Positions 8,746 through 53,894 of a stretch of 64,000 bases of DNA are shown one piece after another. The notes under the pieces are model-generated. The model saw only the letters and a program-made list of their open reading frames with translations, was not told where the DNA came from and made no database searches. The position numbers and the translations under genes are program-made. The stretch is taken from contig BEXV01000309.1 in NCBI GenBank assembly GCA_003118195.1, forward strand, positions 12,915-76,914, written 5' to 3'. Each line of letters begins with the position of its first letter. Position 1 is the stretch's first letter. Origin of the DNA: Hemicentrotus pulcherrimus. Taxonomy: Eukaryota > Echinodermata > Echinoidea > Camarodonta > Strongylocentrotidae.

Positions 8746-9071
8746 CATGCCATCTCTCTCTCACTCACACCAGCCCTTGCATCAGCTCTCAACCTCGCAC
8801 CATCCCCGTCCCACCATCCCCCTCCCACCACCAACTCTAGGCCTGCCGAATGATTATTAAATAATCTTGAATTAGGTTAAACGTCACTGACTTGCCAGCA
8901 GGTAATTTCATGCCATCTCTCTCTCACTCACACCAGCCCTTGCATCAGCTCTCAACCTCGACCATCCCCCCTCCCACCATCCCCCTCCCACGACCAACTC
9001 TAGGCCTGCCGAATGATTATTAAATAATCTTGAATTAGGTTAAACGTCACTGACTTGCCAGCAGGTAATTT
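8746..9071. repeat. 163-bp tandem duplication
   Basis: Copy 1 (8746-8908) begins CATGCCATCTCTCTCTCACT and ends CAGCAGGTAATTT-like sequence. Copy 2 (8909-9071) repeats it directly. Differences are confined to a few bases in the CCATCCCC-rich middle, so identity is very high and the duplication recent, or an assembly artefact. Confidence 0.9.
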
Positions 9072-15356: not shown

Positions 15357-17990
15357 CTTACTCTGCAGTCTTGACGCCTGATTCTCTGAATCGACAGTCA
15401 GCTGCCTAAAAGTCGGGACGCATTCGACTGGAGCCATGTAAGGGACAAAAACTTTAGAAGTCGCGATTGTCTCCACTTACGTCTGCCATTCCCTCACTGT
15501 ACATTAATGTGACTGAAGCAAGCTATTATGGTACTTTCATTTACACGAGGGCTCATTGTAAGGAGTTGTAGTTAGAATTTCCTTGAATAATCGAAGAGGC
15601 AGAATCTGTCCTAGTTGTCCCGTTACACTTGATCCAATTAATCCAAACCTTAATGTTGTGATATACATGATTTATTGAATAGAGTGTAATTGAAGTTGAT
15701 GGAAATTCAAAATATTGGAATTAGAATCTAAACATGAACTGTCCAAAAGCATTTAGGTGTTGGAGAAATAGCTCATCTTATAAAAACTTGACCAAATTCC
15801 TGTTCATGCCATTGATAACACAGGCAACATGATGATTTATTCTCATCTCCTGCCTCCTCCCACGCCCAGCCATTAAAGAGGGGATGAGAAATGAACACAG
15901 GTTGCCGAAAATATTTTCATCGGGTAATGTAGACTACTAATACTTAGAGATTGTAAGGGATAACCTATGTTTCGAGAGAAAAATCCTCCAGTCACTTCCT
16001 TGTGTCACTCTTATCTCTAGCCATTTTTGTGTTTGTACAGATAAGTCAGATTGTCTTGTTTAGTAGAGTGTGTATCAGTGTGGATATGTGGATGTATTCT
16101 TTAATACACCATGCAGCTTTCATCTTTTGAAGAAAAGAAATCTTTTTGAAAGGGGTCTTCAAAGAAAGTTTTGATGAAAGAGATCAAATTCAAGAATTTC
16201 TCTTTGATGTTAGTTTTTAAAAAAAAATATTTGGCTAAACATTTGTAAAAGTTTTCCTCTTGAAATTTGTCACGTAGGCTTGGAATTTCAATGTTCTGAG
16301 ATCAAAACTAATTTGGTGTTCAGAAATAGAAGAATTCTGACTGCTTTTAGCAACCGAAAGATTGGAACTTACTCACTCCTAGTGCATGTTTACATGAAAT
16401 AATGATAGAGCAGGAGTTATTAGAATATCTTGGAAATGTAATGAAATTCTTACTGACGTCAGCATCTGGCTGATTTCAAGTTTTCTTGCTCCAAATAAAA
16501 CTTTTGTAGTATGTTACAGGAATGATGAAAGTTATTCTAAATTCTAGGACACTCTGCTACATTCCCCAAGGACTTGAATTGGCTACATTTTGGAATGTGT
16601 ACTTTTTACATGTGTATATTTCAGTCAATAATGATTGCTTCATTATCAGCTTTTCAAAACAACAAGAATTAGGATATTTATCATATGACAGAATCAAATC
16701 AGAGAGTTTTACATTTGTAACAACATGTTCTCCCGGTGTAATATCAAGTAATTGGTGATTAGACTTTTGATATACATTTCAAGTTTTATTTGTTATGATA
16801 TTGTTGCATTTGTGATATCGATAATTTCTTTACAGCCGTGTTTTTAATATCAATGCGAAATTAAAAACAACTATGCAAGATGTGAAAGCGAATTTGGGAA
16901 TTTGTCTTATCCTAAAGGTTCTTTTTCAGAATGCTTGTAATTCTGAATACAAAATTTTCTTTGCCATAGGGTTCATTCCTCCAAAAATGTATTAGAGTTT
17001 CAGAATCAGGTTCTGGAATCTGAACATTTCTAAACATTTGATGTATTCTTCAAAAGATTCATTCAATAAGTAGTTTCTGTGAAGGTTTGTAACTAAACAT
17101 TGTAACAGGATTTATATATACTTGTATATATATGTATATATCAATTTTTAAAATATTTTTTTAATGAGTAGGGTTTTCTTTTTCTATATTTTCAAAATGA
17201 CAACTTTGTTCCATTTGTGGAAATTGAAAAAAAATGGAATTTTAAACTTTTGGATCATTGAAATAAAAGAACATTGAAAAAGTTAAATCTTTGGAATACT
17301 GAACCTCCGGATAAAATAACAGTTTGAAAAAATAAACATTTGTAAAAAAAATAAGCTGTAAGCATACCTGATGTACTGCCCTCGATCCCTTTACAACTTC
17401 AGGGATGCATCAAAAGGCTTCCCTAGCAAAACACACTTTACTATAAATACAATGGAATATGATATTATCTAATGAGCACATGTTAGGCTCAAAACGTAAC
17501 CTACATCATATCTGTAATTTCTATCATAAGCACCTAAAACATGACCATCACTATGAGGAATTCTGCAATCGACTAAATTGCACTTACGGAATGAAAGCGA
17601 GTAGAGGAGTTTAGGCATGGGTCAGTTGTTGCAATATGCATGGCGGTGATGGAAATGCATTTTATCAGTCTCTATTGTTAAGTAATCCTCCATCTTAAAG
17701 TTCTCATCTCTACCTACATGTACTGAGGAATCTCTGCTTGTACTCTACATATCAAACGCACCATGAGTACATCGATTCTGATTATAGTTTTGTCTGTTCC
17801 TGATGTTTAAGAATCTTTTTCAATTTTAAAATTCATCATCATCTTTTATATCATTTAAAGGTGTTTTTTTTTTTCTCTTCTCAAAATGCTAATGCTGCTA
17901 CATGCAATAATATGTGCTTTAATGTAACATATGATTTTATTTGCAAATAGTGGAGGAATGACATCTTTAATTGTAGTTGTTTTTTCCTCC

Positions 17991-18355
17991 ATTAAAGCCC
18001 CTCTTAAAGTGTTGGAAGACCCCCAAATTTGATGGCAAATTTTCACTGAAATTGTATCATAATGTGAAAGAGGATGACATTTAAGACACATTTCTGAAAG
18101 GATTTTGAAAACAAATGTGTTTAAACTCAAATATTAATGACAGAATACAAAATTTAGGGTTTCTGCATACAACTGAAAATCCAGATTATGTATTCTTTTA
18201 TCAATATTTGTCTTCAAAAACATTTTGTTGGGGAAAATCTTTGCAGAAGTGTGTCTTAAATGACATGCTCTCTCACACTTTGATACAATTTAGGTGAATT
18301 TTGCGATCAAATTTTTAGAAACGTTTGGCTCCCAGCACTAAAGAGGGGCTTTAAT
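17991..18355. mobile_element. 365-bp foldback (long inverted-repeat) element
   Basis: The left arm begins ATTAAAGCCCCTCTT and the right arm ends with its complement AAGAGGGGCTTTAAT. Further in, the arms stay similar: TTTAAGACACATTTCTG on the left near 18080 matches the complement of CAGAAGTGTGTCTTAAA on the right near 18245. Left AATTGTATCATAATGTGA likewise pairs with right TCACACTTTGATACAATT. The arms are roughly 130-150 bp and imperfect, with an AT-rich centre. No transposase frame is present. No clear target duplication was found, so the superfamily is unassigned. Confidence 0.75.
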
Positions 18356-18782
18356 GATAATGTTCATATCTTTTAACATGAAATTTATAATTTTTGAATA
18401 TTTTTTTGAATTTCCTCATATCTTATTTATCTGTGTCTTCATGCCAGTTTTTGATTTTGTCTTCAATGTTTATATTCTGCTTCCTTTGAATGCACCTAAT
18501 TTCATGTCAGGAGCTCTCCTTTATTTCTTAATAAAAGAAGTATGTAATGTTCATCTTGTCCTTAGAAGATTGCACTATTTTCGAGAGGGGTGATGAATAT
18601 TGAAGGATATTAAGCTCCTTAGCCTAATTTGTGATATAAATCCTATTTTTGATCCTGGCAGTGATATCGAATGATGATCTGACCACTGGGCATATTCGGA
18701 AGAAGATGTGGAAGGTTATAAAGATAGAAATGGAGGGTACTTTTAAATGAAGAGAAGGTGAAATAGAATGGAGAGGTAGAAT

Positions 18783-20115: not shown

Positions 20116-20500
20116 TTAAAGGGATCGGGTAACTTTGTCTCAGATTCTGAAACAAAATTCTGGATAGCTCATGCTGCAATGATAATAATCAAACCTTTAG
20201 GTCAGTCAGGAACCCCATGACTTTTACAAGCCGATCACCTGTCTGATTATCAAGATATTAATGATTACAAATCAAAATCAAATTTTGCGTTTTCCTAACG
20301 GTTTTCATAACACTACAGTCTATCAGGGAAAAAGAGTATGGAAAAACTGGCCACTCAATGATTTTTACTTTTTATGAGGCACTTCTTGATCGTTTTGAAG
20401 TGCAATTTTTTTAGGACTTCAATATTGCACCATATCACAGACACTGACAGCATGTAGGACCGTGTATATCACATATAACATTGTTAAACGATGCCTTTAA
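20116..20500 (+). mobile_element. TTAA-flanked inverted-repeat element, copy 1
   Basis: Begins TTAAAGGGATCGGGTAAC and ends near ATGCCTTTAA, which is the complement of the start with one mismatch. The first ~100 bp match, in inverse orientation, 23156-23253 beside the assembly gap (shared blocks include AACTTTGTCTCAGATTCTGA and CCTTTAGGTCAG). TTAA at both ends would be compatible with piggyBac-like insertion, but the internal tip is not the usual CCC, so the class is open. No coding frame. Confidence 0.55.
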
Positions 20501-21090
20501 AGTTACAACTATGATGATCCCATGTGAATATAGCCTTTGCCGTGCTGTGAGATCAGCCTTGAGATGGCATCCAATTTTGTTTGAGAAACCTAAATGAATT
20601 TATTGTGATTTGACCAAAGTTTCATTGTCCACCAGACTGCAATCTGAAGATTAATTCAGAATAAACAGTGTGATTATATAAAAGAAATGAAAATTTAATG
20701 TAATGTGATTGATTTAGATGGTGAGTTAAATCCAAGAAATAATCACATTCAGGGAGAGAAGGGAGAAGGGGGAAAGGGAAATAGAGAGGGTGAGGTGACA
20801 GGAAGTGAAACCGAATGATGTTGTCTAACAACTAGAAACATTAATATTAAGTTTAATTTGAATTCTGGTACCGTATTAATGTTCTGAAGTTTGCTTGCTT
20901 TCATATTAAGAGAAAAGTTATTATTAGAAGAAGAAGTAAGAAGAAAAGTGAACTGGTTGGATGGTAAAGATGACAAAAGATAAATAGGAGAGGAAATAAG
21001 GAGAATAAGAAAAATTCATACAGAATTTTCTAAGGAACATTTGTGTACCATATGTCAATTCAAAATCAATACCACAATTTTCAATCATAA

Positions 21091-21193
21091 TATCGTCCCT
21101 ATTTTCACGAAGTGATGGTAGTGAATGAAAATCGCATACAATTTGCGTGCAGATTTTCCTCACTACCGTCACTTCGTGAAAACAGGAATGATA
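21091..21193. repeat. Long near-perfect hairpin, ~48-bp arms
   Basis: The left arm contains TATTTTCACGAAGTGATGG and the right arm CCGTCACTTCGTGAAAACA, its complement with few mismatches. Pairing continues through GTAGTGA/TCACTAC and GAAAATC/GATTTTC towards a short loop near 21139-21145, and outwards to TATC/GATA ends. The arms cover about 21091-21138 and 21146-21193. This could be a compact MITE or a hairpin RNA precursor; the sequence alone does not decide. Confidence 0.75.
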
Positions 21194-23096
21194 TAGAGAT
21201 CCATGATGGTTCCCTTATTGTTGCTTGAATCATGTAGTACTCTAATCTTCAGAAATTGTCTGTTTCAGTTTTTCTATCAGAGTCTTTGATTGTGTGGAAA
21301 CCATGCCGTCCTTTGAAATGAGTTCTACACTTTAATTGCAATCCATATCAAATCATATTCTTTTTGATTTACTTGTACTAATTTCCCCCCAAATGATTCT
21401 CTCTTAATAACAGTCAAGATGATGTATGAAAAACATAGAGTGTATACCATATCCTATCATTAATTACCCTGCACATTTAGATTCCTTCTCCTGAAATGAG
21501 TCGGAAATGTCAGATACCGGTTACTATTGACTAGTTTTCGAGAACGGAATTTGGTATCTTGTAAAGCATTGTTCGGTTGTGTTATTACATGTCTACCAGC
21601 GATGTGGAGAGAGTTTCCTCACAGTTGGAGGTTATTTAATTGATCAAAGATGGTTCTTTTGTCAGGGAATATCACTCTCTAGTCTCTACCATGTTAATTT
21701 TTATATTATGATTAAAGTTTTGTATGAAAATAACATAGCTTATTGAATTTTGAATTTCATTGCAATTTCTTCTCATTTCAATAGGTGATGCATGTGGCTT
21801 TGGAAATTGTTTTATGTACATTGACCAAAAAAAAAGTCTTTTTGATCCTGTTGAATATCTCATCAGGAACAACCTAGGAAGTTTGCGTAACATATCAACA
21901 ACTCATGTATGCAAGTACGTGTATGTGTAGCATTTTGACCTGGCAAAAGTTTTTTTTCTTCATTTACTTGCCTAGCTTATTATACTGTTGTATAGTTTCC
22001 CCCGAGGAACAGAAATACGATTCAGAGCAGTGTGTGATATTTAGTTATCTACTGAAGATGTTAAACTGTTGACTTAAAAACTTGCAGGCCCGTTCACATG
22101 AGACTGTAAAGTGGTAAACTTGTCTTCAAGAGACAGTTATTACCACGTGTATTCAAATCTCAGGAATATTTTTTCAACAAGGATGACGCAAGTGTCTTGC
22201 CTGACATGTCAACCACTACTGTTATGGTACCTATGCTCCTTGCATTTTGACATAAGATGCACTTATATAGGCCTACATGTACATTGTAAGTATAATTTTA
22301 ATTTGTGTGCCTTGGATCATATCTTCCATTCAGAGGCAGACGTTAATTTATATCATGTAACACAGGATTAATGCCCTTCTTGTTCTCAACATACATATAG
22401 ACGTATGTGAATTGCCTTCCCAGGTCTCACCTACAGAACCATGTCTTACAGCTGTGATATGATAATTACATAGGCTACCGGTATACACTCATTGAAAGAG
22501 ACTCTCCATAACAGGTCACAAATCTATTTAAGTGTATTATCGTATTCTACAGACTTTTAACAAATTATGCTAGCAAATTGTTTTGGTTCTTATTCCAAAT
22601 GCCGGTAATATATTTTCTCTTTATCCTCTATCTTCTCATCTGCTATGCAATTGATCTACTCTTTGGTCAGCAATAAAGTAAAGAGTATTTTGTTTACTTA
22701 ATACTAAAAAATTGACATTTGCTTTCACAATTATGATATCATTAAGTTGCCAATTTTATATTAAGGAGTCCTAACTGTCAAAATCCGTAACTTTCATATT
22801 CTTAGAAAATTTCTCAAATAATCTTTGACTGGTTTCTCTCATATATCCACTTGTATTCCAACCTGCTTAATGTGAGATCGATTCAGATTGAATGTCCCCA
22901 TTTTGAAATGGCAAGTACTGTGAAAATGTCTTGTCCTGAGTGCAATATAATAGGGATTCAATAGGAGTTGAGTTGAAGTGTCAAATTTGTCCTGCTTTAT
23001 TGTGTGGTCTCTGTGAATGTAGAGATATGGTTTTAACAATCTTTTTTGCTACTAATGGGTTTCCCTCATGGTGTATGCCCATTCTTTACACACTAC

Positions 23097-23253
23097 TTAA
23101 AGGGATNNNNNNNNNNNNNNNNNNNNNNNNNNNNNNNNNNNNNNNNNNNNNNNNNGGGTTCCTGGCTGACCTAAAGGTTTATAATTATTCTATCATGAGC
23201 TAAATCCTGAATTTTCTTTCAGAATCTGAGACAAAGTTACCGGATCCCTTTAA
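23097..23253 (-). mobile_element. TTAA-flanked inverted-repeat element, copy 2, interrupted by the gap
   Basis: TTAAAGGGAT lies immediately left of the gap and ATCCCTTTAA closes the right side. The 98 bp right of the gap match the start of the element at 20116 in reverse orientation. The gap therefore falls inside the element. Confidence 0.65.
23107..23155. other. Assembly gap (49 N)
   Basis: A run of 49 undetermined bases interrupts the second copy of the TTAA-flanked repeat. Its stated length need not be real. Confidence 0.99.
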
Positions 23254-30186: not shown

Positions 30187-30264
30187 ACATTACATTTTAC
30201 TACATATTTGTAAATATAGTTGTTTTTCTGAAAAAGTGGAACAAAAAGATGATAATAAAGAAAA

Positions 30265-30425
30265 GATGAAGTTTAACAAGAAGAGGAGGGAGAAGAGTGA
30301 GTATATAGATGAAGATGAAGTTAAAAAGGAAGAGGAGGGAGAAGAGTGAGTATATAGATGAAGATGAAGTTAAAAAGGAAGAGGAGGGAGAAGAGTGAGT
30401 ATAAAGATGAAGATGAAGTTAAAAA
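30265..30425. repeat. 49-bp minisatellite, about three copies
   Basis: The unit GATGAAGATGAAGTT, AAAAAGGAAGAGGAGGGAG, AAGAGTGAGTATATA repeats with a period of 49 bp (units start near 30308, 30357 and 30406). A partial, less similar unit precedes it. The period is not a multiple of three, so it is not a coding repeat. Confidence 0.85.
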
Positions 30426-30629
30426 GGAGGAAAGATATTAAGACAGAAGAGGGAGAAGAAAAAAAAATAGCAAAGAGGAGGAATAGGAGGAACAAGAGGA
30501 AGAAAAAGGGAAAAAATGGAAGAGGAATGAAAAGTGTTAGTAAATTAATGGAAGAGGAGAAGGAAAAGGGAAGTGGTACGGTTGACAAGTTAAATGTGTC
30601 TCTAGAGATAAAATATGTCACTTCAGATA

Positions 30630-33296: not shown

Positions 33297-33608
33297 TTAA
33301 CGCCCACTGTGGAGGTACTTGTGGCAGGCGTTGTATGCCCTTGCCTGGCTGGGATCCCTTCCTGCGCTTTGGCATCCGTAGATACACTCCGGCATCGTCA
33401 TTTGGGTGTTTTTGGAGCAGGCCAGACATGTGTAGATGCAACTTTTCTGCATCATGGCGCTTCGCTTTACCGCTGAGTCATCCTTGAAGTTGAGGACGGG
33501 TTCCATAAGGTCCATTGCATCTTCGTCAAAGTAAGGGGCGGGGGCGGCCGGGATGAGCTCTGCTGTTAGGAGGAGCAGGCCCATGACAACCAAGATAAGG
33601 GAATTCAT
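33297..33608 (-). CDS. Secreted eclosion-hormone-type neuropeptide precursor (103 aa)
   Basis: Seen: residues 1-25 form a signal peptide with a strongly hydrophobic core (LILVVMGLLLL) ending in an Ala/Pro-rich cleavage region. Residues 26-47 are an acidic spacer. Lys48-Arg49 is a dibasic convertase site. Residues 50-103 hold six cysteines (57, 61, 64, 75, 79, 95), spaced C-x3-C-x2-C-x10-C-x3-C-x15-C. Known: insect eclosion hormone has C-x3-C-x2-C-x12-C-x3-C-x10-C with three disulfides, and EH-type precursors have been reported in echinoderms. In insects EH acts through a receptor guanylyl cyclase; the echinoderm role is not known to me. The protein ends Ser-Gly-Arg-stop, so the mature peptide may be C-terminally amidated (inference). 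The start is chosen because the signal peptide begins there and a strong splice acceptor (pyrimidine tract then CAG) lies directly upstream, placing the 5' UTR in another exon. The EH family assignment is likely; a secreted cysteine-rich peptide is near certain. Confidence 0.8.
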   Translation of the reverse strand: MNSLILVVMGLLLLTAELIPAAPAPYFDEDAMDLMEPVLNFKDDSAVKRSAMMQKSCIYTCLACSKNTQMTMPECIYGCQSAGRDPSQARAYNACHKYLHSGR

Positions 33609-34113
33609 CTGGGAGAAACAAAAGAAGAATGGTGTAAATATCTATGATGATAATCTAGATACCAAAGTCATGTAGCAAGAGAAAATATCCTTCAAGGGGG
33701 CTGCATTAACATGATCTCATCAATAATATCTAACATAAAGCTATTCATGATATGATAGTCAAAGTGTCCATATGAGGTCTATAAATACTCTTCTGATAAT
33801 ATTCCTTTTTTGCATGTAGCTGTTCACATTTTTTTGGAGCCACATTACTTATTTGCAGCTCTACTTCACGAGCATAAAAACAAAAATTATAAGCCTTCAA
33901 AATAAGGGTGAAAAACATATCAACCTTTTTGTCTACTATGATTGATACATTCTGCAACTAGGGTTTTTTATGAATATTGTAATGTTATTTTGTATCTCAC
34001 TGTATGGAAGAGGCTGCCCCCTTCCCCCATCCTCCATGAGCCCCTGAAATGATAGCTCTTGGTGATGGAGAGAATAACAAAATGAATGCATCATTCATCC
34101 TGAACAGATTTTT

Positions 34114-53579: not shown

Positions 53580-53692
53580 AAAAACAAAAAAAAAATAATA
53601 AAAGGGAAAAGACAAAAAAAAAAAAAAAAAATAATAAAAAAAAAAAAAAAAAAAAAAAATTTATACCCAAAAAAATAAAAAAAAAAAAAAAA

Positions 53693-53752
<60 letters not shown>

Positions 53753-53753
53753 A

Positions 53754-53797
<44 letters not shown>

Positions 53798-53829
53798 ATA
53801 AAAAGAAAAAAAAAAAAAAAAAAAAAAAA

Positions 53830-53865
<36 letters not shown>

Positions 53866-53894
53866 AAAAACAAAAAAAAAAAAAAAAAAAAAAA
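53580..53894. repeat. ~310-bp nearly pure poly(A) tract
   Basis: Almost uninterrupted A with scattered T, G or C and one island TTTATACCC near 53660. It is far longer than a retroposon tail and would be very hard to sequence accurately. The length and interruptions may be partly assembly or base-calling error. Confidence 0.9.

Follow-up and report, generated by a model that had tools for sequence, protein, structure and literature searches.

A probable eclosion-hormone-type peptide precursor gene in the sea urchin Hemicentrotus pulcherrimus

The first precursors resembling eclosion hormone (EH) in deuterostomes were reported from sea urchin, starfish and brittle stars by Zandawala et al. in 2017 (PMC5627052), in a paper that gave the sea-urchin precursors Spnp11 and Spnp15 the new names EH1 and EH2. 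As described there, the echinoderm proteins keep the cysteine positions of insects and otherwise show little conservation, and their assignment is backed by clustering and by guanylyl cyclases that group with EH receptors (PMC5627052). In the account of Semmens et al. (2016; PMC4772807), the starfish precursor Arnp11 has 103 residues: a signal peptide of 21 residues comes first, then an acidic spacer, and the dibasic site at 45/46 precedes the 57-residue Arn11, which runs to the precursor end; sea-urchin Spn11 has 54 residues and six cysteines, and Arnp15a and Arnp15b have 111 residues each, the peptide proposed for Arnp15a stopping three residues before the end. Expression of Sp-EH2 is described as higher at the 70-hour pluteus stage and falling later (Wood et al. 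2018; PMC6209648). The family has been extended to cnidarians, acoels, hemichordates, lophotrochozoans and onychophorans (De Oliveira et al. 2019; PMC6660194), and papers on oyster and crinoid describe further members (PMC8398477 and PMC9793003). EH-type precursors are therefore already known in echinoderms, and the gene described here is most likely an ordinary further member. An earlier sequence-only reading of this DNA proposed that the gene would extend the sequence diversity of the EH family, a novelty that the 2017 publication of echinoderm EH-type precursors takes away (PMC5627052).

We analysed a window of 64,000 nucleotides from contig BEXV01000309.1 of Hemicentrotus pulcherrimus. Its minus strand carries, at 33297..33608, an uninterrupted frame of 103 codons that starts with an ATG at 33608 and closes with a TAA ending at 33297, consistent with a single uninterrupted coding exon; the same stretch has no open frame on the plus strand. 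The product has the parts that the sequence-only reading listed, on what is now seen to be the minus strand: a leader, an acidic spacer, a Lys-Arg site and six cysteines at intervals of x3, x2, x10, x3 and x15. Because 13 open reading frames of at least 100 amino acids are listed in the window, this one among them, its length is not significant by itself, and the 12 others are what could be said for a spurious or decayed frame. We find such a reading scarcely credible, contradicted as it is by a Lytechinus pictus homologue, conserved over its full length and including every cysteine and the cleavage site, and by base composition: the coding stretch has 54% GC (67% at third codon positions), against 34–35% in two 1-kb flanks. 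A looser version of the cysteine pattern (x3, x2, x8–14, x3, x8–16) is found at a single place across all six frames of the window, against none in 60 order-1 Markov replicates.

When 5.8 billion proteins were searched with the window protein as query, two of seven candidates matched at E ≤ 1. One, here called P0002, is the product of L. pictus LOC129265913, named 'uncharacterized', which aligns over the whole length at 82% identity (E = 1.5e-50); the other, P0001, is 83% identical (E = 1.4e-52). A second search, with an alignment of mature parts as query, returned the L. pictus protein alone (one of two candidates, E ≤ 10), and no Strongylocentrotus purpuratus protein was among the matches of either search, at E ≤ 1 for the full protein or E ≤ 10 for the mature-part alignment. 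P0002 has the same cysteines, Lys-Arg site and Ser-Gly-Arg tail as the window protein; it differs in being one residue longer and in ending Gly-Arg-Lys. At the level of sequence, this full-length homology is decisive for a real gene at 33297..33608. Together with the precursor architecture, the echinoid homologue also bears out the proposal of a neuropeptide-type precursor outside arthropods. The locus offers, with its coding exon complete, what is likely an EH-type hormone gene of an echinoderm, and it ties this gene to an uncharacterized one of L. pictus, a laboratory sea urchin that provides a way to test the role of such a hormone in an animal that never moults.

The gene is probably single-copy: in its own genome (414 Mb, 4189 contigs), a search with the full-length protein scored two candidates and at E ≤ 0.001 matched nowhere but at the locus. 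Directly before the ATG, a pyrimidine-rich tract ending in CAG (33609..33629, minus strand) forms a candidate 3′ splice site, from which we infer a non-coding 5′ exon, with a plain 5′ UTR as the alternative. In P0001, 55 residues precede the methionine that matches the one encoded at 33608. Aligned by tblastn to the window, this upstream part matches 33609..33716 on the minus strand over 36 residues at 78% identity (E = 2.3e-15), and in the window this conserved sequence is broken by an in-frame TAG, which favours translation from the ATG at 33608. Conservation is high across 33543–33716, from just upstream of the ATG through the leader, and the leader exceeds the hormone in this respect; a regulatory or splicing element may overlap the start codon.

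The precursor begins with a putative signal peptide (residues 1–22; 33543..33608), hydrophobic in character and with a cleavage site judged by eye, in which 1 of 22 columns varies among the three homologues. It is followed by an acidic spacer (residues 23–47; 33468..33542) with seven Asp or Glu residues and 11 of 25 columns variable, and by a Lys-Arg prohormone convertase site (residues 48–49; 33462..33467) that is invariant in all three. The predicted mature peptide (residues 50–101; 33306..33461) contains six cysteines, at positions 57, 61, 64, 75, 79 and 95, every one invariant, and the precursor closes with Gly-Arg (residues 102–103; 33300..33305), a predicted amidation signal that reads Gly-Arg-Lys in both homologues; all these parts lie on the minus strand. 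With 1 of 25 variable columns in residues 1–25, 11 of 22 in residues 26–47 and, for the mature peptide, 17 of 52, conservation is higher in the leader than in the hormone (Fisher p = 0.004, a descriptive value given three sequences and non-independent sites). Within the mature peptide, 3 variable columns fall in the C-terminal 20 residues and 14 in the first 32 (p = 0.04, from three sequences). Of the 15 residues in the lengthened fifth interval, 13 lie in this best-conserved C-terminal part, so that a free loop is improbable there.

By the usual rule, a glycine followed by basic residues is an amidation signal. Because the Ser-Gly-Arg tail is conserved in all three proteins, with a lysine added in two, an amidated Ser101 is predicted, and this C-terminus could be checked by a mass spectrum. 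Insect EH is not known to be amidated. For echinoderm EH, amidation goes unmentioned in the sections considered here of PMC4772807 and PMC5627052, but by their legends the figures there mark amidation glycines or give amidation precursor by precursor, and it may already be in print.

We hold it to be fairly probable that the locus is a single-copy echinoid peptide-hormone precursor gene, most likely the orthologue of EH1 (Spnp11) or EH2 (Spnp15), an orthology that we infer because the precursor architecture fits the published descriptions. On this reading, the leader would be removed in the endoplasmic reticulum, a prohormone convertase would cut after Lys48-Arg49, and a carboxypeptidase would trim Arg103 and leave Gly102 exposed for conversion to an amide. 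The predicted product is a 52-residue peptide (residues 50–101) with three predicted disulfides, which may fold as a small helical bundle. By analogy with EH1 and EH2, and following from the proposed orthology, its receptor would be a membrane guanylyl cyclase.

For comparison with insect EH itself, a set of EHs was gathered with a Manduca query; 120 of 160 matches were listed, and those that carried names were from insects. The window protein shares with arthropod EH (PF04736) the cysteine order C-x3-C-x2-C...C-x3-C...C. The sequence-only reading had taken the longer last interval as the sole departure from insect EH: the last interval is indeed longer, x15 against x10, but the third differs as well, x10 against x12, the spacing being 3, 2, 12, 3, 10 in all 120 EHs listed and 3, 2, 10, 3, 15 in the window protein. 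A hidden Markov model (HMM) built from these 120 EHs gave the window protein 0.4 bits, a score reached by 151 of 300 shuffles with the cysteines held fixed; of 300 such shuffles each, 166 reached the score of the L. pictus protein and 154 that of P0001. With hhalign, the alignment to a profile of 24 EHs was confined to the part C-x3-C-x2-C, over 11 and 12 columns, at probabilities of 1.5 and 1.0% and nominal P values of 0.034 and 0.053, and 50 of 120 shuffled profiles matched the real score. The Pfam Eclosion model matches 24 of 24 EHs scanned but is absent at E ≤ 10 from the scans of the window protein, of its mature part and of the homologues P0001 and P0002. The profile comparison with insect EH that had been proposed as a check gave a score typical of cysteine-fixed shuffles and no Pfam Eclosion match. 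Apart from the order of the cysteines, sequence comparison measured no resemblance of the window protein to insect EH, and the controls show how little else ties the two together, although these HMM, hhalign and Pfam tests may be too weak for a true distant relative.

Insect EH pairs its cysteines 1–5, 2–4 and 3–6. For the window protein, structure prediction placed helices at residues 45–65, 72–81 and 86–99, each with cysteines, a layout as expected of a compact three-helix peptide in a model of low confidence (pLDDT 58.5). The model of EH is equally weak (58.5), and a sequence search of PDB chains with the EH profile gave no match at E ≤ 10.

These results bear on a different account, in which the product is a sea-urchin-restricted six-cysteine secreted peptide, neither an orthologue of EH1 or EH2 nor a relative of EH, whose cysteine arrangement is of independent origin, a parallel to other helical disulfide-rich peptides. 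The EH HMM score of 0.4 bits and the hhalign score, both so often reached by shuffles, agree with it, as do the two of five intervals that are unlike those of all 120 EHs listed and the finding of just two homologous proteins among the matches. Weak EH scores are, however, expected even of true members, because the published echinoderm EHs, too, are described as having little in common with insect EH apart from their cysteines (PMC5627052), and precursor length, spacer and 54-residue product fit the description of Arnp11 and Spn11 (PMC4772807). The hhalign P values also stood near nominal significance before the shuffle control. We regard this account as unlikely, although with a real chance of being right. 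It is quite unlikely that the gene belongs to an echinoid family of amidated hormones, strongly conserved in the C-terminal motif AGRDPS-x-ARAY-x-ACH-x-YLHS, that merely converged on the cysteine arrangement of insect EH; were that so, the 'EH' label of such echinoderm genes would rest on cysteine order and not on common descent.

Membership of another known six-cysteine family, of the crustacean CHH/ITP type or that of the N-terminal cysteine domain of vertebrate opioid precursors, is very improbable. The N-terminal domain of the opioid precursors also has the order C-x3-C-x2-C...C-x3-C...C, and the cysteine arrangements of both types overlap in part with that of the window protein. Some relatedness of EH to ITP/CHH is noted in an oyster study (PMC8398477). 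Neither type appears at E ≤ 10 in the Pfam scans of the three homologous proteins or of the mature part of the window protein, an absence that is weak evidence because few matches above about E = 0.1 pass the HMMER filters. A better match to another cysteine-rich family had been named in advance as telling against EH. The sole Pfam match was NCD3G, with 12.2 bits for the window protein (E = 0.17) and 15.9 bits for P0002 (E = 0.012); this lies far below the cut-off of 38.9, and the family was dropped. A pedicellaria toxin was likewise dropped, as nothing pointed that way.

Apart from this gene, which the sequence-only reading took for the one gene in the window, 30 open reading frames were picked from a longer list; none of them reached the curated cut-off of a Pfam model, and four matches fell far below it. 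About 370 bases at 17990–18356 align to their own reverse complement at 74% identity, an imperfect palindrome that looks like a fold-back or MITE-type element. A shorter self-complementary stretch (21090–21194, 82%) is flanked by an inverted pair of about 100 bases at 20116–20215 and 23156–23253 (85%). Tandem arrays occur at 8746–9071 (two copies of a 163-base unit, 97% matches) and at 30263–30428 (about 3.4 copies of a 49-base unit, 96% matches). A 315-base run at 53580–53894 is almost wholly A (85% matches to a one-base unit in TRF), unusually long for a genomic poly(A), and could be either a degenerate satellite or a feature of the assembly.

For the preferred reading, orthology to EH1 or EH2, the closest comparison is with the published echinoderm precursors. 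The 'EH-type' label of the sequence-only reading stands in the sense in which the literature names echinoderm six-cysteine precursors (PMC5627052) and falls short against insect EH, to which nothing rises above cysteine-fixed shuffles; the tie to insect EH consists of the cysteine order together with published clustering and receptor data, not of measured sequence likeness. The window precursor has the echinoderm EH layout of a signal peptide (by eye), an acidic spacer, one dibasic site and a six-cysteine peptide, published peptides being about 47–57 residues long. By description, EH1-type precursors (Spnp11, or Spur EH1, and Arnp11, or Arub EH1) resemble it in the 103-residue length (Arnp11), acidic spacer, single dibasic site and six cysteines. 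Its dibasic site at 48/49 leaves 54 residues, as in Spn11, whereas the peptide of Arn11 runs for 57 residues to the precursor end, with amidation unmentioned in the section that describes it (PMC4772807). EH2-type precursors (Spnp15, or Spur EH2, and Arnp15a/b) share the layout and the six cysteines, and the peptide of Arnp15a (EH2a) ends three residues early, as a Gly-Arg-Lys tail would imply; the starfish EH2-type precursors differ in their 111 residues and in spacers of 34 and 37 residues, against 25 in the window protein. The window product fits Arnp11 and Spnp11 best in size, its Gly-Arg tail recalls Arnp15a, and EH1 is slightly favoured over EH2 as the orthologue.
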